DNA from: Daphnia pulex | Taxonomy: Eukaryota; Arthropoda; Branchiopoda; Diplostraca; Daphniidae | Length of the DNA stretch: 64,000 nt | Assembly: GCF_021134715.1 (NCBI RefSeq) | Contig: NC_060024.1 | Coordinates: forward strand, 10,974,001 to 11,038,000 | Reading direction: 5' to 3' | Part shown: one piece after another, positions 3,217 through 64,000 of the stretch | Position numbering within the stretch: the stretch's first letter is position 1 | Layout of the letters: every line of letters starts with the position of its first letter | Notes under the pieces: model-generated | Told to the model about the DNA's origin: nothing | Seen by the model: only the letters and a program-made list of their open reading frames with translations | The model's database searches: none | Made by a program: the position numbers and the translations under genes

Positions 3217-4169
3217 CTAATAGGCGAAACGGGCTAGGGTGTAGGGTGACCTATAACTGAGAATGGGTCCGACCACCCGAGGTCCTCTGGTGTAATCCGT
3301 GTTGAATCGAACGCGGCCAGCTCGGCTGCTGTAAGTTGGATAGGCCAGCCTGATTGGTGCTGCCATGGACCCGAGTCTCCTGGTGCCTCTTTTGACAGTC
3401 GGACGTTCATCTTCATCCGCGTCACTTGCATCATCGCCGGCTGATGGCAGATCAACTTGTTCAACATCAAGGATATCCTCCTTGGTAACGGCGTCATCTC
3501 GCCGCAGAAGCGGACTCTGTCCTTGCGTCTCTTCAACAGCGGCCATTTCGGCATCAGCATTTTTCTGGGCGGCAAACGGGACAACGTTGAAGGGCCCGGG
3601 TCTTAATGACCCTTGCTGCGGAGGTGGCGGGACGCCAAGGCCAGCTGTGGTAGCCTCTCCCGGACGGCCAGGAGTGTAATCCACTTTGGCCCGGTAGCCG
3701 TTCTCGTCGGCGATGTACGTAACCGTCTGCAATCGGCCGTCGGGCAACAAGACTTTGTATTGGCCGGTGACTGAATTGCCGACGCGTCTCTGCTGGTGCG
3801 AATGCTCGTTGCCTTTAAAGTCGTTGACCGCGTAACGGAATCCATAGTCGGCGCTAGCAGCCGCAGCAGCAGGTGGGAGAAGAGGCTGTGCATAAATGAT
3901 ATGGACCCCGCCTTTGAATATGTGATGCAAACGAAAGTGAAACCTCATCAATTATTTCATTACCTGGGGACGGACAGGAGCTAAAAGTGGCGCCGATTTA
4001 GATACTGCCGGTGATTCGACTGAGAGTTCATCACCCCGAGTATAGGCGGCCATGCAAATCAGCAGAAAAATGCCCTGCATAAGGCATTATAATTTAGTAT
4101 TTAAAAAATCATTCGGAACACAAATCTAAAATGAACTTAAATGTTTCATACCTTGACGGAGAGTTCCAT
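3217..4169 (-). CDS. RR-type cuticular protein with charged C-terminal tail, three exons
   Basis: Seen: exon 1 4152-4169 (MELSVK), exon 2 3964-4074 and exon 3 3217-3885 chain in phase 0 to 265 residues. Signal sequence MELSVKGIFLLICMAAYTRG crosses the first intron, a common cuticle-gene layout. The RR domain lies in the first part of exon 3 (about residues 57-117), with GFRYAVNDFKGNEHSHQQ through YIADENGYRAKVDY. It is followed by PGRPGEATTAG, the same junction as in the 285-1250 protein. The tail is unlike that neighbour: Pro/Gln-rich, then acidic (DDASDADEDERP), then basic (VKRGTRR), then Tyr/Arg-rich to a terminal ARFAY. Known: RR domains bind chitin. Inference: a secreted cuticle component; the acidic block could bind mineral or calcium, and VKRGTRR could be a processing site, but neither is shown. 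It is a paralogue of the neighbour with an exchanged tail. Confidence 0.88.
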
Positions 4170-9289: not shown

Positions 9290-10150
9290 TTCAAGGGACA
9301 AAAAAGTAACTAGTTAACCTGGTTTTACATGAACGGAGAAAGCGGGAGTGTCCTATGAAACTGAAACTATCCAGACGGATTTTGCCTTTGAGAAAGAGAG
9401 AGAGCAGGAAGCCGCTTTGGGACGAAGACAAGCATCTAAGCAACAAGAACACTATGCAGCGTGGAACGGCGGAGAGTTATCAGAGATCAGTGCAACCCTC
9501 CCTAGAGGTCCGGCTTTGTGCAATAATTGGGACAAGGAAACTTACCAACTTATGTGAAATCTGTAATAGCTGGGTGTAAAAAGCAATGAAAGAAAATTCA
9601 ATTTTGTATCTAATAGTTTCCCGTTTTTTTAATCTTATCAAGACCTGTATCCGGTAGCCTATTTATTTGGATGGAGAAAGCCGAGATGGTGATTGTTGAA
9701 TTCCATAATCGATATTAATCGGCGTCCGGATGATGTAGTCACGACGAGTCAGGACAGATGATTTTCCAAGCGGCTGAGAATCGTTCAATCGTAGCGCTTT
9801 TTTTCTTATCAGCAACGTTCGTCTTATTCTTATAGATAATAGCTACTTAACTGAGTAGCAAGCATTCCAACTTATTTTATGGCTAGTTGTATTGTGTTCT
9901 CTGATTTTGTTGATTGTCACAAATAAATGCTTTGTTATTGGTCCCGTTGCTCTAGTGACTGACATCCTAATGCACGATTAATATACAGCAACCGATTTTC
10001 ACAACATAGAATTAAAAAAAAAGATGGTTTATTCACTTTTGTTGTAACAGTAATTTTGGGAGAAACAATACATTTTTTGCCGTGCTGATACAATGAGAAA
10101 AATTGAATTATTTGCATGCAAGACAAGAAAATGTTCACGCAATTTGTAAA
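9290..10150. other. Intergenic stretch, no supported gene
   Basis: About 0.86 kb between the cuticle gene block and the repeat-rich segment. Two overlapping ~70-codon plus-strand frames at 9348-9579 have no recognisable content. Confidence 0.45.
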
Positions 10151-10723
10151 TAGACAAGTTCGGGATGCTGAGTTGCACAACCGCAAAATTAGGATCGTGC
10201 GCCAACGAGTTTTTGTAACGTTGTGGGGATAGTAGAAAGCGGGTTTTTTATTATTTAAGCATAGAATTACTTATCTAATCTTAGAAATGTTCAGGATTAT
10301 CGTTGTTTAGAACATTCTGCTTTTTATAGAGTAATTTTAAATGTATAATTCAGCTTAGTTTACCCATTAAAATTAAAGAAAGTCCAAGCCTGGGATGCTG
10401 TTTAGTCTTTTCTTGTGTTTTTTGACAGATCTGCTGACAAGTGACAAGCTCAAACACACAAGAAAAGACTAAACAGCATCCCAGGCTTGGACTTTCTTTA
10501 ATTTTAATGGGTAAACTAAGCTGAATTATACATTTAAAATTACTCTATAAAAAGCAGAATGTTCTAAACAACGATAATCCTGAACATTTCTAAGATTAGA
10601 TAAGTAATTCTATGCTTAAATAATAAAAAACCCGCTTTCTACTATCCCCACAACGTTACAAAAACTCGTTGGCGCACGATCCTAATTTTGCGGTTGTGCA
10701 ACTCAGCATCCCGAACTTGTCTA
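10151..10723. repeat. Perfect long inverted repeat (268-bp arms, 37-bp loop)
   Basis: Arms 10151-10418 and 10456-10723 are reverse complements. I compared them end to end and saw no mismatch or indel; every coordinate pair sums to 20,874. The loop (10419-10455) includes TTTGACAGATCTGCTGACAA. The arm sequence has no coding frame of note and does not match flanking DNA. A transcript would fold into a 268-bp duplex. No clear target-site duplication was found at the outer ends, so it is not shown to be a transposon. It could be a foldback element, a hairpin-RNA locus, a recent inverted duplication or an assembly artefact. Confidence 0.9.
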
Positions 10724-10786
10724 TGGTAAGTGTTAACTGTTAAGTCAATCAATCAATCAACCTCAACAGACTGTTGTGACGTCAAC

Positions 10787-46700: not shown

Positions 46701-48090
46701 TTGAAAACATTTTTACCCCATCAACCAGAAACAATGGAATAAATACAGCATGTCATGTTAATTTTGGGATGTTATTATATGATTATATCCATCTACGTTG
46801 ATATATTTTAACAACACGTGAAATTTTTTCTTCGCAGTTAAGAAAGATTCGTTCTTTATCGAACTTTAGAAATCGGCAACACTGCTCCCAGTTTTCATAG
46901 AACTTCGTCTGCTGTTGAAAAAAAGTCAAGAAACAAAACTGATGTCACGTCGTGAGCATGGTTAATAAAGTGTGCATTTAGTAAAGGAGTCTGTTCACGC
47001 AAAGTGTCCTTTTGTTTCTCGATTCCTCAATCTGTGTTATCCCACCGGTGTCCCGTCCACCTACACGTGGTTGAAACAGTGAAACAGTCCAGAGAAAACC
47101 TTGTTGGAATAGGTTGCGAAGTACAAATACGAACACAAACTGAATACAAACTGTAGACAGTGAAGTACTCAAATGTTCAGTGGCAGCAACACAGGAGTAG
47201 ATGAATTGCCAGACAATATGTTCTACCAATCAACATGGAAATTAACATGGATAAAAATTTTCACATCATACAAAGTATGACTGTTGAAAAATATGCTAGA
47301 CAGTGAAAAGTACATCAACATTAGTGTCGAAAAGCGTTGGTTAGTCCAGGTAAATTGCAGGTTGGCTTTGCCTACATGTTCCAGGTTTGCAACAAAGTTT
47401 TTTCAAGTGCTGAGTGGGGTCGGTGGGGTGGGGTGTTATGAAACTTAAAGACCAGATAAAATGAAAAGTCAACCTTCTTGATTATCCAATAATCAAGCTG
47501 AAGTTTTCATGTGGCATAGGTGCTTTTGGCCCAATCCAATAAGCTAAGCTGTGTCTTACAAATCTAAGGAAATCCTATTTGCAAGGTAATTGTTTTGACT
47601 AACTTCTATATTTTGATAACTGTAACATTTAAGATGGTATAGAATAATTAGTTAGAACCTTTCTGAAAAACTGGGTTTTCCAGTTGTTGCTGGACGGATT
47701 GTTTTGGTGTTTGTTCCCATGTCGTTAACTTGCCGAATTAGGATACAAGAATGTTAAATGATGACATTATGATTTGGTGCTCGATTGCAGAGTGAACAGA
47801 GAGCAATCTGTCAGTGTCAATATTTGTCTGCTTTAAATCAACAGACACTAACACCACAGCCCGCCGTATTTTGTATTTTGTATTTCGTTTGTGTCCTTGA
47901 ATTTTCCTCATTCTCAAACGTAAATCAGCCCTTCCGGTATCTTGCTAACCGCAAGTAGCTGACAATCCAGCCGTTCCGTCCAGTCGTTGGTGGATCTTGG
48001 CTCTCATACGCGACTAAAATGATGTCCTCTAGATGGCGCGCGTGTCTTCGTTGGAGATGAAAATTCCGCCATTTTTTTTCTCGAGAAACT
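46701..48090. other. Transition region without a supported gene
   Basis: Low-complexity tracts stop near 46.7 kb. The following 1.4 kb has more balanced composition, with isolated acceptor-like sites (TTCTTCGCAG at about 46838) and an 83-codon minus-strand frame (46978-47229) that I do not recognise. Its partner sequence, if the palindrome extends, lies beyond the right edge of the window. Confidence 0.4.
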
Positions 48091-48094
48091 GATA

Positions 48095-49490
48095 GAAAAT
48101 GTGTCGTAAAGTTGTGCGTTACGTTATTACGGTGTACTTTACATTTTTCGTCAAAATGGTAATTCCTGCTTCAGCTTCTTAATTCCTTACTCTATCAGTT
48201 TTCCTACAGCAAGTCTATAGATTAAGTTTATTGATGACCAGAGAATAGATCCTTTTGCTTGACTCTTGTATTTTGACAAGGAAGTAATTTTTTAAGGACT
48301 ACATTGTTAGAGCAGTTTGTAAGTTTATTTCTGTTGTTTTGTTCTCGGAACTAATTTTTTTTTTTTAAATAGGTTTAACATCAGGATCAAGTCAAAACTT
48401 CTTTGATTGCTTTCTATGTGCGCATGGTTTTGTTGCAGTCAGCTGGTGAAAGGTGTAATCTTGTAAAGTTGAGCTGTTGCATGCAGTGGATGTGTGCATG
48501 GTGCTGGTCTGGTCTGGTCTGGTGTTACCTTTGGGTGAGTCATAAATTGTAATGGAAAATTTCATTGCAGACATCCTTTATGAAGTCATGCCATAATCTG
48601 CTTTTCCATCCAGAGCTGTGAGAAGGATCATGATGGTGTTACAGAAATTGAGAACACGACAAAGTCTTAGCTTCATGGCTGTCGTATCATTACCATGATT
48701 TTGTTGCAGCCAGCTGATGAGAAAAGTGTGATCGATTCAAGTTGAGCTGCAGCTGCTTCCTTCCAAATAACTGTTTATGTTTAAAGAAAGCCATATTGTT
48801 GGTCAGCTTCCACTGAGATTTTTTTTATTTATTTTCTTCCAATCAAACTAGAACAAAAATTCCCACTCAGTATTTCCAAGTTTTTATAACTTATTGGAAG
48901 TAGATGTACATAATTCTTTCCTGGTTTCTTTTCAAATTTACATTATTATTCATTTTCCCTAAAGTAAATTTTATTATCTGTACCTTTTTTCACATTTCAA
49001 AATGTTATTGGTTCATTAATGTTCTTTTGCTTTTTAGGAGTTCATGGTCAGTGATGTTTGAGCTGTTTTTGGTGTTGCTGTTTGGTGAACAGTGGTTTTG
49101 CAGTCCCTTTCCAGTTGAGAGATGCTCTGAAATGGAACTTGTGCAGACTTGTAGTTCAACATCACACTTAAATGTGTCATTTGTCTATGTTGGTGTCCAT
49201 GCAGTATATGCAGTGTTGAACAGTTGGGGTAAAATAGTCTATGCTGCCTGATGGCTGTCGCCTGTCGGTCTTATTTTATCGGTTGCATTTTGTCGATATG
49301 TCGTCTCTTGCTACCTCTGCCGGCGTTGAGGTAATGCTTGATGTTTCGTTCAGTTATTGACTTTTATTTCAAATCTCTGTTCTCATTTCAGTTGAAACGT
49401 TAGCCGCCGTTCCTTAGACTTGATTCACCGGTGAAACTAAGAAGACGTAGCTGAAATTCAAGATTGATCAATAAATTATGTAGATAAATT
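48095..49490 (+). ncRNA. Possible spliced transcript with only short open frames (left arm)
   Basis: Seen: a promoter-like GC-rich start with CCGCCATTTT near 48070; a short frame MCRKVVRYVITVY from about 48099; two related ~70-bp segments at about 48422-48490 and 48697-48765 (TTTTGTTGCAG, CAGCTG, AGTTGAGCTG); a pair of strong splice borders (GTTGAG|gtaatg at 49330/49331 and TTTCAG| at 49391, a 61-bp intron); and AATAAA at about 49470. Across that intron a 14-residue frame MSSLATSAGVELKR ends in TAG. A 115-codon frame at 48904-49251 (MYIILSWFLFKF) crosses an acceptor-like site and is not recognised. Its arm copy differs at one residue (Ser to Tyr). It could be a noncoding RNA or a small-peptide gene. 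Confidence 0.3.
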
Positions 49491-49597
49491 ACACGTGCAT
49501 AATCTGGGTTCCCTTCTTCAGTGGCCCCGTTCCCCTAACTAACCAATAACCAACGCCCGCCAGTGGTCACTCACTCGCTGCGACAACCAGGAGGGAG

Positions 49598-50731
49598 ATG
49601 TCTGTCGAACGGGGACTTGCTAGGCGCATGATTCGATTAAATCTGTTGGAGGGTCATGAGTCTAAGCCGGAAGCCTACTATGATGCATTTCTCTCATGAT
49701 AACTGCTCCTCGGCTCTCTTCGCTCTTTTTCCGGTTTCTCTTAACCATGGCCGGGTAATCTCCCTGGTCGAGTCAGTCGGGCAGTGTCTTCCCCTGCTTG
49801 ACTGGCTGCAGTTTGAATCGGACGGTCTGTTAAAATAAGAATTTAAATCTAGAACAACGCTTCCTTTGAGCGGCCCGGACAATCCTGAACCCTTTAGGGT
49901 TGCTATTCCATCGAGGCTTAAACGAGGGTACGTAATTACACGTTAGTCAAAATGCTACAGCTAAAAAATTCAATTGTTTGTATTACCCAGATGACGCGGA
50001 GGTGTTGCCCATTGAGGGGTTTTGGTGACAAGGAGTCACTGAACGAAACGCCAAACCAAATGAAGAAAAAACATTAAAAAAGGTAATGCTAGATACGACA
50101 TGAAGCTTTTGCTTTCGCAGAGAATAATGTGTATTTGTGTGCAACCAACGATCCTTTATGTATCCGAGCCGAGTCCTTTCCATCTATTCGGTGTGAGGAG
50201 CAAAACCCGAATTTCAACACATTTTACTGCTTAGCAACGAAAACAAAGCGGGTGTCAAAACATCTTTTTACTTGCGGCATACTTTATTGCGGTAGAAACG
50301 CGTTGATCATGTAACAGGGTGAATTTTTTCCCTTTTGTTCATGCAGCATCAAACGACACGCGATAGGTTCCGGCGGTCATCAACTATTCAAGATGGTAGA
50401 CCTGTCAATGTAAAAGACAGGGTAAGGGTAGCTCCTGTAAATGTTATTCATTTATGTTAAAAAGCTGCTAGTAGGATCTCATCGTTGAATCTGCGGTTAC
50501 AAAATCCATAGTATTGTCAATCAATCATTCGATTTGTGTTTTACATTCTCCTAAATCAGTTGTGGAAATACGATTTTTTACCCCCGCTTATCCTGGATGG
50601 TTATTTAGGATCATGTAAGTTCATTTTTTAGTTAACGTTGTGAACGTAACGGACGAACTCTGACAGTCTATCGAGCTTTAGCAATTTCGTCAAATTTCTT
50701 ATTTTATTTAGTTGATTTAACCGTTTTATGA
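49598..50731 (+). CDS. Unrecognised multi-exon coding locus, model incomplete (left arm)
   Basis: Seen: three exons at 50347-50421, 50560-50614 and 50667-50731 chain in phase with good GT-AG borders. They give a 64-residue C-terminal part containing RDRFRRSSTIQDGRPVNVKD and LWKYDFLPPLILDGYLGS, ending LVDLTVL and TGA. Upstream exon candidates are an ATG frame 49598-49699 (MSVERGLARRMIRLNLLEGH, then stop), 49853-49927 (TTLPLSGPDNPEPF, RVAIPSRLKR) and a frame to 50314 with VYLCATNDPLCIRAE. These upstream pieces do not join in one frame under any splice choice I tried. The locus may be a decayed gene, two genes, or a transposon fragment. I recognise no family. Confidence 0.3.
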
Positions 50732-50739
50732 GAAACCTC

Positions 50740-51004
50740 GATTTGTATTTTTTTTAAATTAATAATTTATCTATTTTTTAATCTCTGTTTTGCGATTTTT
50801 TGCTCCGGTTGCAGGTGCAAGGGTCATATGTTTGTAACTTAGATAAGGTTGCAGTAGAATATTTCAAAAAAGCCAATTGTTGTTCAAACGGTTCGAAATT
50901 GAATATTTATTCATTCACTGAATAAATGAGTCAAATGACTCAAATGTCAATTGGTATAAAGTGACTAAAGTTTAAGCCATTATCATTTATGACTTGATAT
51001 ATTT
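50740..51004. other. AT-rich arm segment, nothing recognised (left arm; mirrored at about 61403-61667)
   Basis: About 265 bp of AT-rich sequence between the unrecognised coding locus and the direct repeat. It contains a short partly self-complementary run around 50915-50945 (TTCATTCACTGAATAAATGAG) and no coding frame. Confidence 0.4.
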
Positions 51005-51400
51005 ATTTTGATATTGGTTTTTGTAGACCCATCCCCAGCAACGTCATCCTGCAGAAAGAAAAAGGCCATTTCTATGGCCTTCAGATTCGAAGATCGCGGA
51101 GATAATTACGTAAAACTGGCATGGGGTGGCGTAGAGGTTGGGTGAGAATGGCACGTTTTTCAACATTATCAAGCAGGTAGAATAGCCGCAAGGGTAAGCT
51201 ATTTGGTATTCATTTTGATATTGGTTTTTGTAGACCCATCCCCAGCAACGTCTACCTAAAGAAGGAAAGGCCAGTTTGCATTTCAATCGAAGGTCATGGA
51301 GATCATTAAGTAAAAAGTGTCATGCAGTGGTGTAGAGGTTGGGTGAGAACGGGACATTTTGTATCATTTTATCAAGAAGGTAAAATAACCGCAAGGCATA
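51005..51400 (+). repeat. Two ~195-bp direct repeats ahead of the tyrosine-rich cluster (left arm)
   Basis: Units at about 51005-51205 and 51211-51400 share TTTTGATATTGG, GACCCATCCCCAGCAACGTC, GTAGAGGTTGGGTGAGAA and ATCAAG..GGTA.AATA.CCGCAAG, with scattered differences. The second unit ends about 25 bp before a TATA box, so the duplication includes the proximal upstream region of the promoter. Confidence 0.75.
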
Positions 51401-51423
51401 AGAGGAGGGGTGAGAAAAAGTCG

Positions 51424-51458
51424 TATAAAAGGCGAGAGAAAAGTCGACAGGGATCAGT
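51424..51458 (+). promoter_or_regulatory. TATA plus initiator ahead of the tyrosine-rich copies (left arm)
   Basis: TATAAAAGG at 51424 and TCAGT at 51454-51458, with 32 bp from the TATA start to the initiator A. This is a textbook arthropod core promoter, about 90 bp ahead of the ATG of copy 1. It looks intact although the coding copies downstream are broken. Confidence 0.7.
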
Positions 51459-51543
51459 CGAGCGAGTATCTCCGACACGGTAACAGCTGCATTCCACTAT
51501 CTGCCATCAGCTGCATTCTTCATCGTACTATCAGTTCTCAATC

Positions 51544-51990
51544 ATGGGTAAGTTTTCTGTTTGTCGTATTTAGTCGTGTATCAATATTCAATTTCTATTT
51601 TTTTCTATTTGCTACTAGCAAGTTATTGGTGAATGGTAATGTTTGAATTTATCAATTGTCTAGTAAACTATGCTGTCGTGCTGTTGTTGGGTGTTGTGTC
51701 GTTGATGGCTGGTTCAGCCACTGGCGTACCGATGTATCCTGGGTATGGCGGATACCAAAGCACTACACTGCCGCCTTAGTACACAACTTACGACACAACC
51801 AGTTGCTACACCGATCCCCCCAAGTACTTCACCACCATGCTGCCCCGAGCTACTACACCGAATCCCCGCAGTATTATTCTTCTCCGAGCTACACTACTAA
51901 AGGGTAGAGTACTACACCGAGGCTCCCCAACACTACATCACCAAGGCACCGGAGTACTACACCACTACATATCATGGGTAAATATTCTGT
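51544..51990 (+). pseudogene. Tyrosine-rich secreted protein copy 1, interrupted (left arm)
   Basis: Seen: exon 1 is ATGG at 51544-51547 with donor gtaag. Exon 2 from 51664 continues in phase as a clean signal sequence (VNYAVVLLLGVVSLMAGSA) and TGVPMYPGYGGYQSTTLPP, then TAG at 51777-51779. Beyond the stop the family repeats go on (YTTYDTTSCYTDPPKYFTT), then a frame change leads to APSYYTESPQYYSSPS, a further TAG, and APEYYTTTYHG. Known: Tyr/Thr/Pro-rich secreted repeats of YYTEAP type are, to my knowledge, a crustacean (Daphnia) structural family. The stop sits where a TAC tyrosine codon is expected. A 39-residue secreted peptide could still be made. I judge it a decayed copy. Confidence 0.65.
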
Positions 51991-52278
51991 TAGGTCGAGT
52001 TTTAATATGCCAACTACTAAATATACAAATTATTTAATGTCTATTAGTAATGAAGGAGAGAAAAGGTGAAAGATTTCAGCAGCCGATTGAGCATCTCCGT
52101 TACGGCAACAGGAACTGCCGTGCACTATTTGTCATCAACTTCATTCTTCGTCGCATTAAAAGTTTTAAATAAAGGTAAAAAATTTTCCATAGAGTTGTGA
52201 ATCAACTCTACTTTTTTTCTATTTGTTAATATACCAGTACCATAATTGAAAATAAATTTAAAATTTATTAATCGTCTA

Positions 52279-52640
52279 GTAAACTATGGTGTCGTGCTGC
52301 TGTTGGGTGTTGTATCGTTGATGGGTGGTTCAGCCATGGTGTACCGATGTCTCCTGGGTATGGCGGGTACTATAGCACAACACTGCCGTGCCGTCTAACT
52401 AATTAGCATCAACTTCCGCTGCTCCAGCTTACTACACTGAGGTTTACAAGTGCTACACCACCATGGATCCAGAGTTTTACACCACAGCTCATGTTGCCCC
52501 GACCTACTACGCTGAATGCCCGAAGTATTTTTCTTCCCCGAGCTACACTACCAAAGGGTCGAGAACTACGTCGAGGTTCCAAGTATTACATCACCAAGGC
52601 ACCGGAGCACAAAAACGGTTGAATACTACACAGAAGCTAT
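52279..52640 (+). pseudogene. Tyrosine-rich secreted protein copy 2, frameshifted (left arm)
   Basis: Signal-peptide exon is NYGVVLLLGVVSLMGGSA, but one base is missing after GSA, so the VPMSPGYGGY part falls in another frame. The upstream counterpart of exon 1 (about 52060-52175) has lost the ATGG. Repeats further on (TTAHVAPTYYAECPKYFSS) are in yet another frame. It runs straight into an intact-looking ATGG|gtaaa at 52645, which serves as exon 1 for the next copy, so copy borders are shuffled. Confidence 0.65.
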
Positions 52641-52644
52641 CATG

Positions 52645-53470
52645 GGTAAATATTTTTTTAATTTTTTCATGGAAATTTGAATCAACTTTCTAATTGTCAA
52701 TATGCCAGTTATTAATGCAAATTAAAGTTCAAATTATTTGTTGCCTAGGAAACTATGGTGTCGTGCTGCTGTGAGTGTTGTAATCATGATGGCTGGATTG
52801 ACCACTGGTGTGCCGATATCTCCTGGGTATGGTGGGCATCAACAACAACATACGCAACAACCGCTTACTACACTGGGACCTGCAAGTGCCAAACCACCAA
52901 GGCTTCAGAGTATTACACCACAGTTTATGTTGGCACGAGCTACTACGCAGAAGCTCCGGAATAATTTTCTTCCCCGCTTCACTACCTTCACCACGCCGCC
53001 TCCTTACTCAACAACAACAACAACGTCAACACCTACTTACTAAACGAACGCCTCCAAGTACTACGCCATAAAGGCTTCGAGTATTAAACTTCAACCTATG
53101 ATGCTCCAGCTAACTATAATAACGCTCCCATGTACTATTCTGTTCCCAGCTACCACACCGAGGGTCAACCTGTTACACCGCCGAAGCGCTCAAGTACTGC
53201 ACTACAACCTACATTTCACGAAGACACCGTAGTACTCCATCACGAAGGCACCGGCACGTTAAACCGAGGCTCCAGTTTACTACACTGTAACCTACGCTGC
53301 TCCAAAGTACTACACCGACAAGGCATCCGAGTATGACACCACTACTTACGCTACTACCACCTACTACACCCAAGCTCCGAAAGCACTACTCTGCCCCGAG
53401 TTACTACACCACTAAGGCAGCCGAATATTACACCACAAACTACGATTCCGCAATTCGGTCACTTTCATGG
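52645..53470 (+). pseudogene. Tyrosine-rich secreted protein copy 3, frameshifted (left arm)
   Basis: Exon 1-like ATGG at 52645, intron, then exon 2 from about 52750 (NYGVVLL). One base is lost inside the signal sequence, shifting the frame. VPISPGYGGHQQQHTQQPLT and TTLGPASAKPP continue in another frame to 53043. After that about 400 bp of recognisable repeat words (YYTTKA, APxYY) are broken by several stops. AATAAA follows at 53512-53517, so the cluster keeps a 3' end signal. Confidence 0.65.
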
Positions 53471-53511
53471 TCATTGGTCACTGGAAATTAATTGTTGATC
53501 TTTGATGAGAA

Positions 53512-53517
53512 AATAAA
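53512..53517 (+). terminator. Polyadenylation signal AATAAA after the tyrosine-rich cluster (left arm)
   Basis: AATAAAGTTTTAATG downstream of the last repeat words; the right-arm mirror is at 58890-58895. It is the only such signal close behind the cluster on that strand. Confidence 0.5.
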
Positions 53518-53524
53518 GTTTTAA

Positions 53525-53900
53525 TGCTGGTAGTTCTTTTGGAAGACTTTTGGTAGTAGCTTCAAGCCTGTCAACATTGCGACAGTTGTCTATTGGCGTT
53601 GTATTTCTTCAAGGCCAGTATGCCAAGTATTCAATTGTTTGTCTAATGTTTTAGAGGTTTCCACTGCCTTAGTCACTCTGCATACGGACATGTTCTTGTT
53701 ATTCGACGACGATGATGATTCAAGGGTAAGTTACGAAAGAGACTTGTAACTGGTGATTTTTCAGTTCTTATAAATAATAGGCAAATGGCTGACTTTAGTA
53801 TGAATAAAGACTTTGAAGTTATATTGCTACAATTCCTGAACAACTCTTGTTATAAATTAAGAAACATTGAACAAAAAGCTTATTAAAAGAATTGTGATAT
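53525..53900. other. Arm segment with no recognised gene (left arm; mirrored at about 58507-58882)
   Basis: About 375 bp after the polyadenylation signal. One GACGACGATGATGATTCAAGG|gtaag splice-like site near 53725 is the only feature, and nothing supports an exon there. Confidence 0.4.
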
Positions 53901-53976
53901 ATTGTCCCGCCTCCACCCACAATTCCACCACATTTTACATTGTCCCGCCTCCACCCACAATTCCACCACATTTTAC
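53901..53976. repeat. 38-bp unit repeated twice in tandem (left arm)
   Basis: Units 53901-53938 and 53939-53976, both beginning ATTGTCCCGCCTCCACCC and ending CCACCACATTTTAC, identical. It stands 40 bp before the MITE at 54022. The mirror copy is at 58431-58506 and keeps both units. Confidence 0.85.
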
Positions 53977-54021
53977 AGTCACATACACATATACATACAA
54001 ATATACATACACTTAAGTTAA

Positions 54022-54282
54022 CCCGTTGGCTGCCACGCCATACAACCCGTAGGTTGCACTCTACTACTCTACGCGCCACGTCTGAAGGATCCATGACCAA
54101 AGTGGGACTTGCCATTACTGACAAGTCCGGGCTGACAAGGGGGGTGCATGGTGCATTGCCTTATAACAGGCGCCTTGCGGCAAATTTTGGGCTTGGCGAC
54201 TTTCCGACCCCGCGGTTTGTAAACCACGAGACCGAACAGCGCGGCCCGTGCAGGGGAGAACAAAGGCGTGGCAGCCAACGGG
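54022..54282. mobile_element. piggyBac-like MITE, 261 bp, flanked by TTAA (left arm)
   Basis: Perfect 18-bp terminal inverted repeats, CCCGTTGGCTGCCACGCC at 54022-54039 and its complement at 54265-54282. They are bordered by TTAA at 54018-54021 and 54283-54286. Known: piggyBac elements insert at TTAA, duplicate it, and begin CCC and end GGG. There is no coding capacity for a transposase, so it must depend on one elsewhere. Frames crossing the element on both strands are incidental. The superfamily call rests on termini and target site only. Confidence 0.75.
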
Positions 54283-54543
54283 TTAACTAACACTAACACA
54301 AACATATTACCAACAACAAATGAGGATCCGCGCTGACATTTTGGAGATACCAACGGCGTTGAAATGTCCATCTTCTCGACGGCATTACCTGAATAAAGAC
54401 AAAACCATTCTTATTTAGTGACATGCCAATAAAAGTTACATAATACAGATAGAAACAATAGTCAGGTTTTTAAGCTCAAAGATTTAAAGATTCAATTTTT
54501 TTAACTTAAAATCAAGCTTGCAATATTAAGAAATGTAAACAGG

Positions 54544-54930
54544 ACAAAGCTCACTTGCTAGTTTTTTGAAAATTTACCGGAAGTATACCGGAAGTAACCA
54601 CAGCGCATCAACCATTGAGCTGTCGTCAAATTAAACCACATATTCGTGATCCCCATGAAATTTGGGGTCGATTAAGTGTGATTTAAACGAAATCCAAAAT
54701 TTGGCCAAAATCGAGAATTTTCCTGAACTATAAGTTCAGGAAAATTTTCGAAACCGGAAGTACGAATACGTAAAAAACAAAACATGAACTTTACCACAAA
54801 TTTGACGAGGATCACGAATATGTGGTTCTTTCGTACGTTAGATCAATATTTACTAAACTACTGACAGAAATGAGAAAACCGGAAGTAGAAAAAAAAACAC
54901 ATTTTTTAAAATCTAACAAGTGAGCTTTGT
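54544..54930. mobile_element. Foldback-type element, about 387 bp, nested inverted repeats (left arm)
   Basis: Ends are ACAAAGCTCACTTGCTAG and the complement of ACAAAGCTCACTTGTTAG. Inside lie a second inverted pair (CCACATATTCGTGATCC at about 54637 against GGATCACGAATATGTGG at about 54807) and a central near-palindrome (TTTTCCTGAACT, ATAAG, AGTTCAGGAAAA). ACCGGAAGTA words recur near both ends. No transposase and no certain target-site duplication. The whole element could fold into one long hairpin. Confidence 0.55.
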
Positions 54931-55173
54931 TGGGGGAATAGTTACTGTTAGTTATCACTAAATATTTCAACAAAATAACTACCAATAAATGTTTAAAAAG
55001 ATGTGCAAAGTAACTGAAACTGACTGTTTTGACAGCGGCAAATTTTCAAAAAGCCATCTAGCGTTAGAAAAAAGAAACGTCCAAGTAAAAACTTTGTTTG
55101 CGCGCAAGAAGGGCCTGATTTTGTAATTATTACACAGACAGAGTCTAACGCAACTAGATTATTAGTAGATAAC

Positions 55174-55401
55174 CTACGAAAATAAGTCAATTGTTGGGTA
55201 CCTGGGCATAATCCCGTGGTGAGTGACTGCAGGTGTGTAACAGCGGACGGACGCGATCACTGAAGTGTTCCAACTCGTCGGTGAAGTAAGACAAGTTGTA
55301 GCAGAAAAAGCAGTGAAGCTAGATGAGTGTACGTCGGGAAGATAAGGATGGAGCAGAACGTTGCTGGATGTCCCTCTTCCTTCATGGACAAAGGTCAGCA
55401 T
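55174..55401 (-). CDS. Possible exon with a conserved frame, left core
   Basis: A 75-residue frame (MLTFVHEGRGTSSNVLLHPY, later CYTPAVTHHGIMPRYPTIDL). It matches the right-core frame in order despite nucleotide divergence and length changes that keep the frame. A splice donor look-alike (CCCAG|gtaccc) lies near its end, and an acceptor-like TTTTACAG precedes it. I do not recognise the family. It may be part of a longer exon or simply inherited open sequence. Confidence 0.3.
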   Translation of the reverse strand: MLTFVHEGRGTSSNVLLHPYLPDVHSSSFTAFSATTCLTSPTSWNTSVIASVRCYTPAVTHHGIMPRYPTIDLFS

Positions 55402-56958
55402 TGGCTTAAGGATCTATTAAGTGCTCTGTAAAAAAAATGTATTGCATTAATGAATTGAAAATTTTACAGTTAATAAAGCATTTCAATCTTTACTTATACT
55501 AACAAGCACACTGAAGTTTTCATGAAAAAAAACCCCGCAAAAATGGAAATCACAGCAACCAACAGCCTTACTCCTCAGGTTGAGGCAAATTTCCTGATGC
55601 TAAAGAAAGTGTCATTATGAAGTATTGCAGTAGTGTGGTGATAGATTATATTGATGCTTACCTTTATCATATGGGTGAATGGTGATGAATTTAGTAAGGC
55701 ATTTGACGTGGTGTGGTTGGTACTTGGTAGCAGTAATGGGGAAATACCTTATTTCGGCACATTTGTATTCCACTATATGACTGCTTCAAACATGAGTTTT
55801 AGGCTTTTGACTGCATGAGGATCTAATGGATGGAAATTGACTGAGCGCCAAGTCAACTTGTTGGAATTACTGACAGTATGCATCTAGAATTTTTTGAAGG
55901 AATAAGTTGGTACAGTATAAAAATAAGGAAACTATGTCAAGATAAACCTACATAAGAAACGAAGTTCAATTTGGTATATGAAAGCACAGGAATATAAGTA
56001 ATAATTAGCTACAATTTGTTTCGCTCATTTCGCCTCATTTCACCATCAAAGAACAACAACATGGGCGACACTAGCGACATCTGGTAATAAGTTTTGAATC
56101 CAAAGTTGTCGCTTTAGGATTCAAAACTCATTGCCAGATGTCGCTAGTGTCGCCCTTGTTGTTGTTACATCGTGAAACGAGGTTGGGCGAAATAGTTGGT
56201 TGCTAATTTATAATTATATTCCTGTGATTTCAAGTACCGAATTTAACTTCATATCCTATGTAGGTTTATCTTGACCTAATTTTCTTATTTTACACTGTAC
56301 CAACTTATTTCTTCAAATTTTAGATGCAAACTGTCAGTCTTTCCAACAAGTTGACTTAGCGCTCAGTCAATTTCCATCCATTAGATCCTCATGCAGTCAA
56401 AAGCCTAAAACTCATGTTTGAAGCTCATATATTGTGGAATACAAATGTGTTGAGATAAGGTATTTGCCCATTACTGCTACCAGACCGTTACAATTCAGAT
56501 TTTCATGTAACATAGGTATTCTTGAACCAAGGAACCATAGGCGTACCCTGCAACAGCATGTTTGTTGTTATGGCTGTTTTTACTTCTGTTTAGAAGGCAA
56601 CCCAGCTAAGAGCTAGGTACAGTTTTATTTCTCATAGGTAAATTTGTGTAAATTTGTAAATAACGTAGAGAATTTCCTTTTCCCATTTCCACTTAGAGTT
56701 TCAGTGACATGAAGAATGTGAAGTGAACCACCTATCACCATGCTACTATAACACTTCATGACACTTTCTTAAGCATCAGGAAATGTATCTCAACATGAGG
56801 AGTAAGACTTTTTGTTCCTGTGATTTCCATTTTTACGGTTTTTTCATCATGAAAATTGCAGTGTGCTTCTTAGAAAAGGTAAGGATTGATATGCTTTATT
56901 CTTTGTTATATTTTCATTAATGTAAAACATTTTATTTTACAGAGCACACGGTTTTTTT

Positions 56959-57234
56959 ATGGAATGGTGTGGTCCTGGCATGGAGATTCTTGTGCCAATG
57001 CTGACCTTTGTCCATGACGGAAGAGGGACTTCCATCAACGTTCTTCGCCATCCTTATCTTCGCGACGCACGCTCAACTAGCTTCACTGCTTCTAAACACA
57101 ATTTGTTTTACTTCACTGGTGACTTGGCGAGTTTCTGGACAACTTCAGTGATCGCTTCCTTCCGCTGTTACACACCTGCAGTCACTCACCACGGGATTAT
57201 GCCCAGGTACCCGACAATTGACTTACTTTCGTAG
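56959..57234 (+). CDS. Possible exon with a conserved frame, right core
   Basis: A 91-residue frame opening MEWCGPGMEILVP, then MLTFVHDGRGTSINVLRHPY and CYTPAVTHHGIMPRYPTIDL. It is preceded by TTTATTTTACAG, a good acceptor, and reads away from the palindrome centre. Compared with the left core it has extra residues in the first part and a replaced middle (KHNLFYFTGDLASFW), all in frame. The family is unknown. Confidence 0.32.
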   Translation: MEWCGPGMEILVPMLTFVHDGRGTSINVLRHPYLRDARSTSFTASKHNLFYFTGDLASFWTTSVIASFRCYTPAVTHHGIMPRYPTIDLLS

Positions 57235-57477
57235 ATTATCTACTAATAATCTAGTTGCGTTAGACTCTGTCTGTGTAATAATTACAAAATCAGGCCCTTC
57301 TTGCGCGCAAACAAAGTTTTTACTTGGACGTTTCTTTTTTCTAACGCTAGATGGCTTTTTGAAAATTTGCCGCTGTCAAAACAGTCAGTTTCAGTTACTT
57401 TGCACATCTTTTTAAACATTTATTGGCAGTTATTTTGTTGAAATATTTAGTGATAACTAACAGAAACTATTCCCCCA

Positions 57478-57863
57478 ACAGAGCTCACTTGTTAGATTTT
57501 AAAAAATGTGTTTTTTTTTCTACTTCCGGTTTTCTCATATCTGTCAGTAGTTTAGTAAATATTGATCTGACGTACGAAAGAACCACATATTCGTGATCCT
57601 CGTCAAATTTGTGGTAAAGTTCATGTTTTGTTTTTTACGTATTCGTACTTCCGGTTTCGAAAATTTTCCTGAACTATAGTTCAGGAAAATTCTCGATTTT
57701 GGCCAAATTTTGGATTTCGTTTAAATCACACTTAATCGACCCCAAATTTCATGGGGATCACGAATATGTGGTTTAATTTGACGACAGCTCAATGGTTGAT
57801 GCGCTGTGGTTACTTCCGGTATACTTCCGGTAAATTTTCAAAAAACTAGCAAGTGAGCTTTGT
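57478..57863. mobile_element. Foldback-type element, right-arm copy
   Basis: Mirror of 54544-54930, one base shorter because the central near-palindrome reads GAACTATAGTTC here. A few substitutions also separate the copies (for example CATATC against CATTTC in the flank of the CTACTTCCGG word), more than in the outer arms. Confidence 0.55.
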
Positions 57864-58124
57864 CCTGTTTACATTTCTTAATATTGCAAGCTTGATTTTA
57901 AGTTAAAAAAATTGAATCTTTAAATCTTTGAGCTTAAAAACCTGACTATTGTTTCTATCTGTATTATGTAACTTTTATTGGCATGTCACTAAATAAGAAT
58001 GGTTTTGTCTTTATTCAGGTAATGCCGTCGAGAAGATGGACATTTCAACGCCGTTGGTATCTCCAAAATGTCAGCGCGGATCCTCATTTGTTGTTGGTAA
58101 TATGTTTGTGTTAGTGTTAGTTAA

Positions 58125-58385
58125 CCCGTTGGCTGCCACGCCTTTGTTCTCCCCTGCACGGGCCGCGCTGTTCGGTCTCGTGGTTTACAAACCGCGGGGT
58201 CGGAAAGTCGCCAAGCCCAAAATTTGCCGCAAGGCGCCTGTTATAAGGCAATGCACCATGCACCCCCCTTGTCAGCCCGGACTTGTCAGTAATGGCAAGT
58301 CCCACTTTGGTCATGGATCCTTCAGACGTGGCGCGTAGAGTAGTAGAGTGCAACCTACGGGTTGTATGGCGTGGCAGCCAACGGG
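58125..58385. mobile_element. piggyBac-like MITE, right-arm copy
   Basis: Mirror of 54022-54282 with the same 18-bp ends and TTAA at 58121-58124 and 58386-58389. Presence at mirrored sites shows insertion before the arms were duplicated, or spread by conversion. Confidence 0.75.
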
Positions 58386-58430
58386 TTAACTTAAGTGTAT
58401 GTATATTTGTATGTATATGTGTATGTGACT

Positions 58431-58506
58431 GTAAAATGTGGTGGAATTGTGGGTGGAGGCGGGACAATGTAAAATGTGGTGGAATTGTGGGTGGAGGCGG
58501 GACAAT
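58431..58506. repeat. 38-bp tandem duplication, right-arm copy
   Basis: Mirror of 53901-53976 with both units retained. Confidence 0.85.
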
Positions 58507-58936
58507 ATATCACAATTCTTTTAATAAGCTTTTTGTTCAATGTTTCTTAATTTATAACAAGAGTTGTTCAGGAATTGTAGCAATATAACTTCAAAGTCTT
58601 TATTCATACTAAAGTCAGCCATTTGCCTATTATTTATAAGAACTGAAAAATCACCAGTTACAAGTCTCTTTCGTAACTTACCCTTGAATCATCATCGTCG
58701 TCGAATAACAAGAACATGTCCGTATGCAGAGTGACTAAGGCAGTGGAAACCTCTAAAACATTAGACAAACAATTGAATACTTGGCATACTGGCCTTGAAG
58801 AAATACAACGCCAATAGACAACTGTCGCAATGTTGACAGGCTTGAAGCTACTACCAAAAGTCTTCCAAAAGAACTACCAGCATTAAAACTTTATTTTCTC
58901 ATCAAAGATCAACAATTAATTTCCAGTGACCAATGA

Positions 58937-60863
58937 CCATGAAAGTGACCGAATTGCGGAATCGTAGTTTGTGGTGTAATATTCGGCTGCCTTAGTGGTG
59001 TAGTAACTCGGGGCAGAGTAGTGCTTTCGGAGCTTGGGTGTAGTAGGTGGTAGTAGCGTAAGTAGTGGTGTCATACTCGGATGCCTTGTCGGTGTAGTAC
59101 TTTGGAGCAGCGTAGGTTACAGTGTAGTAAACTGGAGCCTCGGTTTAACGTGCCGGTGCCTTCGTGATGGAGTACTACGGTGTCTTCGTGAAATGTAGGT
59201 TGTAGTGCAGTACTTGAGCGCTTCGGCGGTGTAACAGGTTGACCCTCGGTGTGGTAGCTGGGAACAGAATAGTACATGGGAGCGTTATTATAGTTAGCTG
59301 GAGCATCATAGGTTGAAGTTTAATACTCGAAGCCTTTATGGCGTAGTACTTGGAGGCGTTCGTTTAGTAAGTAGGTGTTGACGTTGTTGTTGTTGTTGAG
59401 TAAGGAGGCGGCGTGGTGAAGGTAGTGAAGCGGGGAAGAAAATTATTCCGGAGCTTCTGCGTAGTAGCTCGTGCCAACATAAACTGTGGTGTAATACTCT
59501 GAAGCCTTGGTGGTTTGGCACTTGCAGGTCCCAGTGTAGTAAGCGGTTGTTGCGTATGTTGTTGTTGATGCCCACCATACCCAGGAGATATCGGCACACC
59601 AGTGGTCAATCCAGCCATCATGATTACAACACTCACAGCAGCACGACACCATAGTTTCCTAGGCAACAAATAATTTGAACTTTAATTTGCATTAATAACT
59701 GGCATATTGACAATTAGAAAGTTGATTCAAATTTCCATGAAAAAATTAAAAAAATATTTACCCATGATAGCTTCTGTGTAGTATTCAACCGTTTTTGTGC
59801 TCCGGTGCCTTGGTGATGTAATACTTGGAACCTCGACGTAGTTCTCGACCCTTTGGTAGTGTAGCTCGGGGAAGAAAAATACTTCGGGCATTCAGCGTAG
59901 TAGGTCGGGGCAACATGAGCTGTGGTGTAAAACTCTGGATCCATGGTGGTGTAGCACTTGTAAACCTCAGTGTAGTAAGCTGGAGCAGCGGAAGTTGATG
60001 CTAATTAGTTAGACGGCACGGCAGTGTTGTGCTATAGTACCCGCCATACCCAGGAGACATCGGTACACCATGGCTGAACCACCCATCAACGATACAACAC
60101 CCAACAGCAGCACGACACCATAGTTTACTAGACGATTAATAAATTTTAAATTTATTTTCAATTATGGTACTGGTATATTAACAAATAGAAAAAAAGTAGA
60201 GTTGATTCACAACTCTATGGAAAATTTTTTACCTTTATTTAAAACTTTTAATGCGACGAAGAATGAAGTTGATGACAAATAGTGCACGGCAGTTCCTGTT
60301 GCCGTAACGGAGATGCTCAATCGGCTGCTGAAATCTTTCACCTTTTCTCTCCTTCATTACTAATAGACATTAAATAATTTGTATATTTAGTAGTTGGCAT
60401 ATTAAAACTCGACCTAACAGAATATTTACCCATGATATGTAGTGGTGTAGTACTCCGGTGCCTTGGTGATGTAGTGTTGGGGAGCCTCGGTGTAGTACTC
60501 TACCCTTTAGTAGTGTAGCTCGGAGAAGAATAATACTGCGGGGATTCGGTGTAGTAGCTCGGGGCAGCATGGTGGTGAAGTACTTGGGGGGATCGGTGTA
60601 GCAACTGGTTGTGTCGTAAGTTGTGTACTAAGGCGGCAGTGTAGTGCTTTGGTATCCGCCATACCCAGGATACATCGGTACGCCAGTGGCTGAACCAGCC
60701 ATCAACGACACAACACCCAACAACAGCACGACAGCATAGTTTACTAGACAATTGATAAATTCAAACATTACCATTCACCAATAACTTGCTAGTAGCAAAT
60801 AGAAAAAAATAGAAATTGAATATTGATACACAACTAAATACGACAAACAGAAAACTTACCCAT
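58937..60863 (-). pseudogene. Right-arm copies 1-3 of the tyrosine-rich family, same lesions
   Basis: Mirror of 51544-53470: copy 1 at 60417-60863, copy 2 at 59767-60128, copy 3 at 58937-59762. The TAG in copy 1 and the single-base losses in copies 2 and 3 are shared, so the decay came before the arms separated or was spread by conversion. One Arg/Cys difference is visible in the frame crossing the first intron (VVFSRVS at 51410-51646 against VVFSCVS at 60761-60997). Confidence 0.65.
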
Positions 60864-60948
60864 GATTGAGAACTGATAGTACGATGAAGAATGCAGCTGA
60901 TGGCAGATAGTGGAATGCAGCTGTTACCGTGTCGGAGATACTCGCTCG

Positions 60949-60983
60949 ACTGATCCCTGTCGACTTTTCTCTCGCCTTTTATA
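60949..60983 (-). promoter_or_regulatory. TATA plus initiator ahead of the tyrosine-rich copies (right arm)
   Basis: Mirror image of 51424-51458 with both motifs and their spacing retained. Confidence 0.7.
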
Positions 60984-61006
60984 CGACTTTTTCTCACCCC
61001 TCCTCT

Positions 61007-61402
61007 TATGCCTTGCGGTTATTTTACCTTCTTGATAAAATGATACAAAATGTCCCGTTCTCACCCAACCTCTACACCACTGCATGACACTTTTTACTTA
61101 ATGATCTCCATGACCTTCGATTGAAATGCAAACTGGCCTTTCCTTCTTTAGGTAGACGTTGCTGGGGATGGGTCTACAAAAACCAATATCAAAATGAATA
61201 CCAAATAGCTTACCCTTGCGGCTATTCTACCTGCTTGATAATGTTGAAAAACGTGCCATTCTCACCCAACCTCTACGCCACCCCATGCCAGTTTTACGTA
61301 ATTATCTCCGCGATCTTCGAATCTGAAGGCCATAGAAATGGCCTTTTTCTTTCTGCAGGATGACGTTGCTGGGGATGGGTCTACAAAAACCAATATCAAA
61401 AT
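61007..61402 (-). repeat. Right-arm copy of the ~195-bp direct repeats
   Basis: Mirror image of 51005-51400. Same two units and same order relative to the mirrored promoter. Confidence 0.75.
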
Positions 61403-61675
61403 AAATATATCAAGTCATAAATGATAATGGCTTAAACTTTAGTCACTTTATACCAATTGACATTTGAGTCATTTGACTCATTTATTCAGTGAATGAATAA
61501 ATATTCAATTTCGAACCGTTTGAACAACAATTGGCTTTTTTGAAATATTCTACTGCAACCTTATCTAAGTTACAAACATATGACCCTTGCACCTGCAACC
61601 GGAGCAAAAAATCGCAAAACAGAGATTAAAAAATAGATAAATTATTAATTTAAAAAAAATACAAATCGAGGTTTC

Positions 61676-62809
61676 TCATAAAACGGTTAAATCAACTAAA
61701 TAAAATAAGAAATTTGACGAAATTGCTAAAGCTCGATAGACTGTCAGAGTTCGTCCGTTACGTTCACAACGTTAACTAAAAAATGAACTTACATGATCCT
61801 AAATAACCATCCAGGATAAGCGGGGGTAAAAAATCGTATTTCCACAACTGATTTAGGAGAATGTAAAACACAAATCGAATGATTGATTGACAATACTATG
61901 GATTTTGTAACCGCAGATTCAACGATGAGATCCTACTAGCAGCTTTTTAACATAAATGAATAACATTTACAGGAGCTACCCTTACCCTGTCTTTTACATT
62001 GACAGGTCTACCATCTTGAATAGTTGATGACCGCCGGAACCTATCGCGTGTCGTTTGATGCTGCATGAACAAAAGGGAAAAAATTCACCCTGTTACATGA
62101 TCAACGCGTTTCTACCGCAATAAAGTATGCCGCAAGTAAAAAGATGTTTTGACACCCGCTTTGTTTTCGTTGCTAAGCAGTAAAATGTGTTGAAATTCGG
62201 GTTTTGCTCCTCACACCGAATAGATGGAAAGGACTCGGCTCGGATACATAAAGGATCGTTGGTTGCACACAAATACACATTATTCTCTGCGAAAGCAAAA
62301 GCTTCATGTCGTATCTAGCATTACCTTTTTTAATGTTTTTTCTTCATTTGGTTTGGCGTTTCGTTCAGTGACTCCTTGTCACCAAAACCCCTCAATGGGC
62401 AACACCTCCGCGTCATCTGGGTAATACAAACAATTGAATTTTTTAGCTGTAGCATTTTGACTAACGTGTAATTACGTACCCTCGTTTAAGCCTCGATGGA
62501 ATAGCAACCCTAAAGGGTTCAGGATTGTCCGGGCCGCTCAAAGGAAGCGTTGTTCTAGATTTAAATTCTTATTTTAACAGACCGTCCGATTCAAACTGCA
62601 GCCAGTCAAGCAGGGGAAGACACTGCCCGACTGACTCGACCAGGGAGATTACCCGGCCATGGTTAAGAGAAACCGGAAAAAGAGCGAAGAGAGCCGAGGA
62701 GCAGTTATCATGAGAGAAATGCATCATAGTAGGCTTCCGGCTTAGACTCATGACCCTCCAACAGATTTAATCGAATCATGCGCCTAGCAAGTCCCCGTTC
62801 GACAGACAT
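61676..62809 (-). CDS. Right-arm copy of the unrecognised multi-exon locus
   Basis: Mirror copy of 49598-50731; the ATG frame begins at 62809, and the three phase-matched exons fall at 61986-62060, 61793-61847 and 61676-61740. I saw no difference from the left arm in the frames compared. The same doubts on the upstream exons apply. Confidence 0.28.
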
Positions 62810-62916
62810 CTCCCTCCTGGTTGTCGCAGCGAGTGAGTGACCACTGGCGGGCGTTGGTTATTGGTTAGTTAGGGGAACGGGGCCACTGAAGAAGGGAACC
62901 CAGATTATGCACGTGT

Positions 62917-64000
62917 AATTTATCTACATAATTTATTGATCAATCTTGAATTTCAGCTACGTCTTCTTAGTTTCACCGGTGAATCAAGTCTAAGGAACGG
63001 CGGCTAACGTTTCAACTGAAATGAGAACAGAGATTTGAAATAAAAGTCAATAACTGAACGAAACATCAAGCATTACCTCAACGCCGGCAGAGGTAGCAAG
63101 AGACGACATATCGACAAAATGCAACCGATAAAATAAGACCGACAGGCGACAGCCATCAGGCAGCATAGACTATTTTACCCCAACTGTTCAACACTGCATA
63201 TACTGCATGGACACCAACATAGACAAATGACACATTTAAGTGTGATGTTGAACTACAAGTCTGCACAAGTTCCATTTCAGAGCATCTCTCAACTGGAAAG
63301 GGACTGCAAAACCACTGTTCACCAAACAGCAACACCAAAAACAGCTCAAACATCACTGACCATGAACTCCTAAAAAGCAAAAGAACATTAATGAACCAAT
63401 AACATTTTGAAATGTGAAAAAAGGTACAGATAATAAAATTTACTTTAGGGAAAATGAATAATAATGTAAATTTGAAAAGAAACCAGTAAAGAATTATGTA
63501 CATCTACTTCCAATAAGTTATAAAAACTTGGAAATACTGAGTGGGAATTTTTGTTCTAGTTTGATTGGAAGAAAATAAATAAAAAAAATCTCAGTGGAAG
63601 CTGACCAACAATATGGCTTTCTTTAAACATAAACAGTTATTTGGAAGGAAGCAGCTGCAGCTCAACTTGAATCGATCACACTTTTCTCATCAGCTGGCTG
63701 CAACAAAATCATGGTAATGATACGACAGCCATGAAGCTAAGACTTTGTCGTGTTCTCAATTTCTGTAACACCATCATGATCCTTCTCACAGCTCTGGATG
63801 GAAAAGCAGATTATGGCATGACTTCATAAAGGATGTCTGCAATGAAATTTTCCATTACAATTTATGACTCACCCAAAGGTAACACCAGACCAGACCAGAC
63901 CAGACCAGCACCATGCACACATCCACTGCATGCAACAGCTCAACTTTACAAGATTACACCTTTCACCAGCTGACTGCAACAAAACCATGCGCACATAGAA
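62917..64000 (-). ncRNA. Right-arm copy of the possible spliced transcript (5' part outside window)
   Basis: Reverse-complement copy of 48412-49490. The two copies differ by one 5-bp unit in a CTGGT/CCAGA run (about 48505 against 63890-63910) and by a Ser/Tyr substitution in the 115-codon frame at 63156-63503. The promoter-like part would lie beyond position 64000. Confidence 0.3.

Follow-up and report, generated by a model that had tools for sequence, protein, structure and literature searches.

A dispersed family of palindromes in Daphnia pulex, one with 8-kb arms that are probably renewed by gene conversion stopping short of the centre

Large palindromes that undergo gene conversion are known mainly from sex chromosomes, where their supposed role is to protect genes from decay; Daphnia is not known to have a sex chromosome. 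Here we describe a palindrome of 17,145 bp in Daphnia pulex. It lies at the end of, and extends slightly beyond, the 64,000-nucleotide stretch that was analyzed (the window; contig C8, NC_060024.1, positions 10,974,001-11,038,000). C1, C2 and so on are contig labels of the assembly GCF_021134715.1 (133.19 Mb, 13 contigs). With a probability of about 0.76, we conclude that this is a true palindrome in which two ~8-kb units stand tail to tail at a recurrent junction and in which the arms are renewed by arm-to-arm conversion that does not reach the centre.

According to excerpts of PMC6790999 and PMC8981503, the sex chromosomes of mammals are well known to carry palindromes maintained by conversion. 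As these excerpts describe them, such palindromes (P8 of the human Y, and those of the X) resemble the present one in their near-identical arms, small unlike centre and single gene family in both arms, and their identity is held by conversion from arm to arm, as we propose here. The arms of P8 measure ~38 kb (excerpt of PMC6790999), compared with 8 kb here. Unlike the sex-chromosome palindromes, that of D. pulex has a paired core that, among the matches listed, is shared by 32 places on eight contigs, and its gene copies are broken. In Adineta vaga and Folsomia candida, palindromes consist, like the one studied here, of inverted gene blocks in an asexually reproducing invertebrate (excerpts of PMC7953838 and PMC5490193). 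For F. candida, the excerpt of PMC5490193 reports widely scattered synonymous divergence (Ks) and argues against concerted evolution, in contrast to the homogenised arms of D. pulex. D. pulex was omitted from the palindrome screen of PMC7953838 because an annotation was lacking, as stated in its excerpt. A literature search on palindromes and inverted repeats in Daphnia, which left subscription literature mostly outside, listed no match whose title or abstract mentioned the window family.

The window, extended by contig sequence of 20 kb upstream and 40 kb downstream (124 kb in all, with an N count of 0), was compared with itself. The GC content was 41%, and the assembly gave 30 matches to glycosyl hydrolase family 7 genes, which among animals are known from crustaceans, in keeping with a water flea. 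One inverted match of 7.8 kb at 99.1% identity connected 47,639-55,415 with 64,783-56,984, and the centre (55,725-56,482) was self-inverted at 85%. The length and identity of the inverted match exclude chance. A first-pass annotation of the window had proposed a palindrome of at least 15.6 kb at 48,412-64,000 that was still paired where the window ends. This palindrome is real and slightly larger (17.1 kb, 47,639-64,783), and its right arm runs 783 bp further than the window. The sequence outside the left border is unlike that outside the right border, and the right arm therefore ends at 64,783. Outside the diverged core, the structure has what marks a gene-converted palindrome, namely two inverted arms that are >97% identical, on one chromosome, between unlike flanks.

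The annotation had also described mirror symmetry in single-base register over kilobases, which holds for the outer ~7.5 kb of each arm but not for the inner 2.1 kb (55,173-57,235). These surround the 15-bp spacer and are 78-87% alike with many indels, the right half of the core being ~190 bp longer than the left half. The 15 bp said to separate the arms were located at 56,102-56,116, and "almost no spacer" is thus correct at the level of bases. With respect to recombination, however, the diverged core of 2.1 kb is to be counted as the effective spacer.

Other copies of the unit form palindromes as well. When window positions 48,400-49,400 were used as a query, at least 39 other matches were found, several of them as mirror pairs; four pairs were examined, and 4/4 were palindromes. 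Palindromes with the following arm identities were read at C2 1,462,086-1,484,430 (99.3%), C8 10,758,310-10,772,054 (99.9% over the inner 2.8 kb and 88.6% in an outer piece), C9 7,797,783-7,813,121 (97.9%) and C12 9,811,399-9,833,426 (pieces at 98.8-99.9%), and a short fifth was read at C2 11.96 Mb (84-87%). The arms of the C9, C2 and C8 palindromes are collinear with the window arm over much of its length, whereas C12 matches pieces only.

The differences between the window arms were unevenly distributed. There were 10 substitutions in 47,639-48,920, 1 in 48,921-54,731 and 5 in 54,732-55,172; the ends of the homogenised part are ~1% different, with 1 substitution in 5.8 kb in the middle. The middle 77% of the arm contained only 1/16 substitutions (P 3e-9 under an even spread, for an interval picked after the data were seen). 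In steps of 500 columns from the outer end, identity was 99.4 and 98.8% in the outer 1 kb, 99.8-100% to ~54,620 and 99.0% after that, followed by 87, 78 and 84% to the centre. The differences consisted of transitions, transversions and small indels, which is not the pattern of read noise. The inner edge was sharp. In the window, dense differences started at 55,173. The C9 palindrome had a similar difference profile, and its dense differences set in ~50 bp away, at the position matching 55,224.

Trees of the core (55,173-56,090 and its mirror) were set against a comparison of the arms (54,140-55,160). The left and right halves of the window palindrome are termed winL and winR, the left half of the C2 1.46-Mb palindrome C2aL, and the right half of the C8 10.76-Mb palindrome C8bR. 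In the core tree, winL grouped with C2aL (support 100/99), and winR grouped with C8bR (100/100) and then with the right core of the C9 7.80-Mb palindrome, the next nearest among those compared, with weaker support (88/93). Forcing winL, winR and C8bR together in the core was 67 log units worse and was rejected (approximately unbiased (AU) test, p 1e-5), and winL and winR as core sisters were still rejected when C8bR was omitted (AU p 9e-6). In the arm tree, in contrast, the grouping of winL with C2aL was rejected (AU p 3e-32), and the C9, C2 and C8 arms each paired by locus. Over 54,140-55,160, identity between arms of one locus was 99.5% in the window, 100% in C9 and 100% in C2 (611 bases), compared with mostly 89-93% between loci; the exceptions were C2 vs C6 (95.5%) and the window vs the C8 10.76-Mb palindrome (99%). 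The window arms are therefore alike over core halves of different history, which is the pattern left by arm-to-arm conversion, and by the core/arm tree conflict and the AU tests they are more alike than separate histories allow, as in concerted evolution. Judged from these alignments, conversion stopping short of the centre appears to be the best account of the conflict. The first-pass annotation had left a choice between conversion, recent origin and artefact; the difference profile and the trees speak for conversion.

The paired core recurs across the genome. Among the matches listed, searches with the left core, the right core and segment 54,134-55,160 gave at least 16, at least 18 and 8 tail-to-tail neighbours, respectively (the window pair is counted in the last), and 0 outward-facing neighbours in each case. 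When the left- and right-core matches listed were combined, the paired core was found at the 32 places on eight contigs mentioned above, and all matches listed combined gave 56 separate candidate tail-to-tail places on ten of the 13 contigs (C2-C5, C7-C12). Inspection by eye of the left-border search added 4 inward pairs beyond the 56 (C1 5.23, C3 9.73, C5 8.04 and C5 10.04 Mb) and gave 0 outward pairs within 25 kb among the matches listed. The common junction, together with a frequent spacing of 5.3-5.8 kb, favours descent from a palindromic ancestor over repeated formation; many of the loci would then have inherited the junction. Left-type core matches listed were mainly on C2, C7 (<2.5 Mb), C6 and C4, and right-type ones mainly on C9, C10, C11 and C7 (>9 Mb). 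Because the two types match mostly different loci, the window core may have a hybrid origin from two subfamilies. A simple origin, with each side descending from a single ancestral half, was also considered and is weakened, since the right-half matches lie mostly at loci other than the left-half matches.

Some individual loci deserve description. At C10 1.85, 2.22, 2.33 and 3.95 Mb, pieces of the outermost window arm occur as mirror pairs 9-16 kb apart and bracket paired right-type cores; these are thus palindromes belonging to the window family. The C8 10.76-Mb palindrome, ~250 kb from that of the window, shares 99% with it over the inner arm and right core and 86-96% elsewhere, and it has no left core half. 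This pattern is one of exchange between palindromes and deletion of the centre. On C6, unit copies at ~111-119 kb (minus strand) and 164-172 kb (plus strand) face outward, ~46 kb apart and 95-99% alike. Among the core matches listed, each matches one core half only, to about the palindrome centre, and they are possibly one-armed remnants. Weak matches to 47,990-48,270 in opposite orientation, 2-7 kb apart, were seen at C6 0.46, 0.70 and 1.14 Mb. In the window itself, each arm contains tandem partial repeats (51,000-51,396, 51,836-52,836 and their right-arm mirrors) that are ~207, 470 and 650 bp apart and 80-84% alike, and, in addition to the 5' part of the unit (Table 1), a shorter, 120-bp piece has matches at 77-92%.

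Table 1. Features of the palindrome, in window positions; strand and basis as in the analysis
Feature	Position	Strand	Basis or remark
Left arm, homogenised part	47639..55172	+	arm alignment
Right arm, homogenised part	57236..64000, running on to 64,783	-	arm alignment
Left half of diverged core	55173..56101	+	closest among cores compared: left core of the C2 1.46-Mb palindrome (support 100/99)
Central spacer, 15 bp	56102..56116	.	flanked by two short near-perfect inverted repeats
Right half of diverged core	56117..57235	-	closest among cores compared: right core of the C8 10.76-Mb palindrome (99-100%)
Outer family segment straddling the left border	47546..47724	+	31/40 listed matches start at 47,527-47,559, beyond the palindrome border
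5' part of the repeated unit	48637..49400	+	39 other matches at 71-88% among the best 40 of 322 candidates
Unit segment	54134..55160	+	best 40 of 707 candidates at 86-100%, both own copies counted
Pieces of YYTEAP/KAPEYYTT tyrosine-rich repeat gene	51630..53440	+	frame-broken, partly tandem; matches in all three frames; pointing to the centre
Mirror gene pieces, right arm	58967..60777	-	arm alignment; 0 arm-to-arm differences found over the stretch

The gene-like sequence that had been noted in both arms is present, but only as frame-broken pieces of a tyrosine-rich repeat gene (Table 1), and neither arm holds an intact copy. Pfam gave no match above the cut-off in the 15 open reading frames (ORFs) tested, searches for RNA families and transfer RNAs gave nothing useful, and a search for the YYTEAP/KAPEYYTT repeat motif found no literature report. 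A 165-residue open piece from C6 had at least 237 matches. The best 150 of 1,863 candidates were merged into 118 copies, among which pairs were taken within 25 kb: 29 were inward, 2 outward and 14 in the same direction (sign test for inward vs outward, p 5e-7). The two scores agreed within 1 bit in 26/29 inward pairs, and the spacing was 5.3-5.8 kb in 13/29. When neighbouring listed matches were counted instead, the tyrosine-rich gene gave 29 inward (25 with equal scores), 2 outward and 39 direct pairs, compared with 8 inward (1 with equal scores), 8 outward and 67 direct pairs for the cuticle control PF00379 (150 listed matches).

Stops within the match were present in 32/52 copies of same-score inward pairs vs 24/66 others, and open frames of at least 330 residues in 2/52 vs 27/66. 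Because copies within a pair are not independent of each other, each pair was also counted once, which gave p values of 0.04 (stops) and 3e-4 (open frames). Introns may add stops, and "broken" is therefore firmest for the window copies. Since these are broken, rescue of the tyrosine-rich gene is unlikely as the purpose of the window palindrome. The window copy would seem to be free of selection. The pair at C7 2,078,880-2,085,733 was the sole same-score inward pair listed in which both open frames reached at least 330 residues (548 and 557). Matches to Chitin_bind_4 (cuticle protein) were found in the window at 905-1,081 and 3,667-3,852 (both minus strand) and left of the window at C8 10,962,475-10,962,654 (plus strand). 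Just before the last of these lies an open frame rich in Tyr, Thr and Gln. There is thus a hint that the tyrosine-rich family is cuticle-like.

We propose the following course of events. Two copies of a ~8-kb unit, in which a tyrosine-rich, secreted-type repeat gene survives as decayed pieces, stand tail to tail at the junction that recurs genome-wide. Pairing of the arms would take place in a hairpin formed by a single chromatid or, alternatively, between sister chromatids, and one arm would be overwritten by the other through gene conversion. Conversion tracts would span the middles of the arms, fade at the outer ends and halt at a distance of ~1 kb from the centre, where pairing may be impeded by dissimilar sequence and tight folding. 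While the arms undergo renewal, the core would preserve an older history of its own.

Several observations weigh against this proposal. The C12 arms are identical to ~130 bp from the centre, in a palindrome without likeness to the usual core, and the identical arms of the C8 10.76-Mb palindrome approach to 1.15 kb of each other; an unconverted central zone of 1 kb is thus no rule. In the arm tree, the window arms cluster with those of the C8 10.76-Mb palindrome (support 100/99), and a sister relationship between the two window arms is not resolved inside this cluster; exchange between these two palindromes therefore also occurred. The left and right cores of C9 as sisters were not rejected (AU p 0.11), so that separate lineages are supported for the window and not for C9 alone. 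Among the core matches listed, 9/29 inward gene pairs bracket a paired core, and scores were unequal in 3/29 inward gene pairs. The 56 tail-to-tail places are a candidate count and not a complete one: sequence was read for the window palindrome, four others and one short one, and most of the rest are positions only. All evidence is from one genome, that of one individual of one species. Further, a single recent long copying event followed by slight later change could give near-identical arms too.

A rival explanation is a recent independent inverted duplication, in which DNA broken at or close to the present core, then an old short inverted repeat, folded back and copied the adjoining 7.5 kb, which would make ongoing conversion unneeded. 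It would fit a core that is itself an old 85% inverted repeat and outer ends that differ among the six palindromes compared. However, several palindromes would each require a recent event at one shared junction, the arm differences cluster at both ends instead of being evenly spread, and the halves of the window core have different closest relatives in the core trees. We consider an independent duplication of this kind unlikely; as for the recent origin named in the first-pass annotation, a simple inverted duplication alone leaves core halves of different lineages unexplained. An error of assembly, through a read-through molecule with a missed adapter or an alternative haplotype joined in reverse, is very unlikely on the sequence at hand: the flanks are unlike on both sides and there are no Ns, the arms differ by substitutions and not by indel noise, the core is ~15% diverged, and other loci have the same paired core.

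Dispersal in dozens of copies, one junction recurring across loci and the common spacing of 13/29 inward gene pairs would also suit a large foldback transposon with long terminal inverted repeats that captured a piece of a host gene and moved as a palindrome or as a half. Foldback elements and miniature inverted-repeat transposable elements (MITEs) are, as here, almost wholly inverted repeat and dispersed. An example lies in the window at 10,150-10,724, where a 575-bp repeat is 96.9% self-complementary and has 15 full-length copies genome-wide (itself counted) at 97-100% with fixed ends; this is a recently active foldback/MITE-like family. Copies of the palindrome unit, in contrast, are mostly 80-92% alike. 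The outer segment of the palindrome family gives a hint of a common outer end, since 31/40 listed matches start within 33 bp (47,527-47,559). Such an end, ~80-110 bp outside the left border, would fit a mobile unit but also a conserved promoter-like piece, and we have kept the transposon among the explanations for this reason. The window arms, however, end at 47,639 and 64,783 and not at this shared end, the borders differ among the six palindromes checked, without a clear target-site duplication, and no Pfam transposase was found among the 15 ORFs tested, although non-autonomous elements lack one anyway. The outermost 86 bp were considered as a terminal repeat and rejected, since the likeness of other copies continues outside the left border. 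On balance, a foldback transposon seems quite improbable. Drosophila hairpin-RNA loci are inverted repeats that resemble protein-coding relatives elsewhere. The D. pulex palindromes share this likeness, with far longer arms, and could be giant hairpin-RNA loci, in which dozens of inward pairs of decayed gene copies, with a mirror match preserved by conversion, would be transcribed through the centre into long double-stranded RNA; small interfering RNAs cut from it would restrain the intact tyrosine-rich genes, whose long frames lie mostly outside pairs. We regard this role as decidedly doubtful.

In D. pulex, the palindromes are a dispersed family, and the genome that carries them is small. 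The gene copies of the window are broken; conversion thus appears to make sequences alike without rescuing them. The family provides replicate palindromes that vary in arm identity and core state, together with apparently one-armed relatives, and the birth of palindromes, the limits of conversion and their death would be measurable in one genome. Further, the Daphnia mutation-accumulation lines described in the excerpt of PMC12926508 suggest that rates of conversion may be directly measurable.

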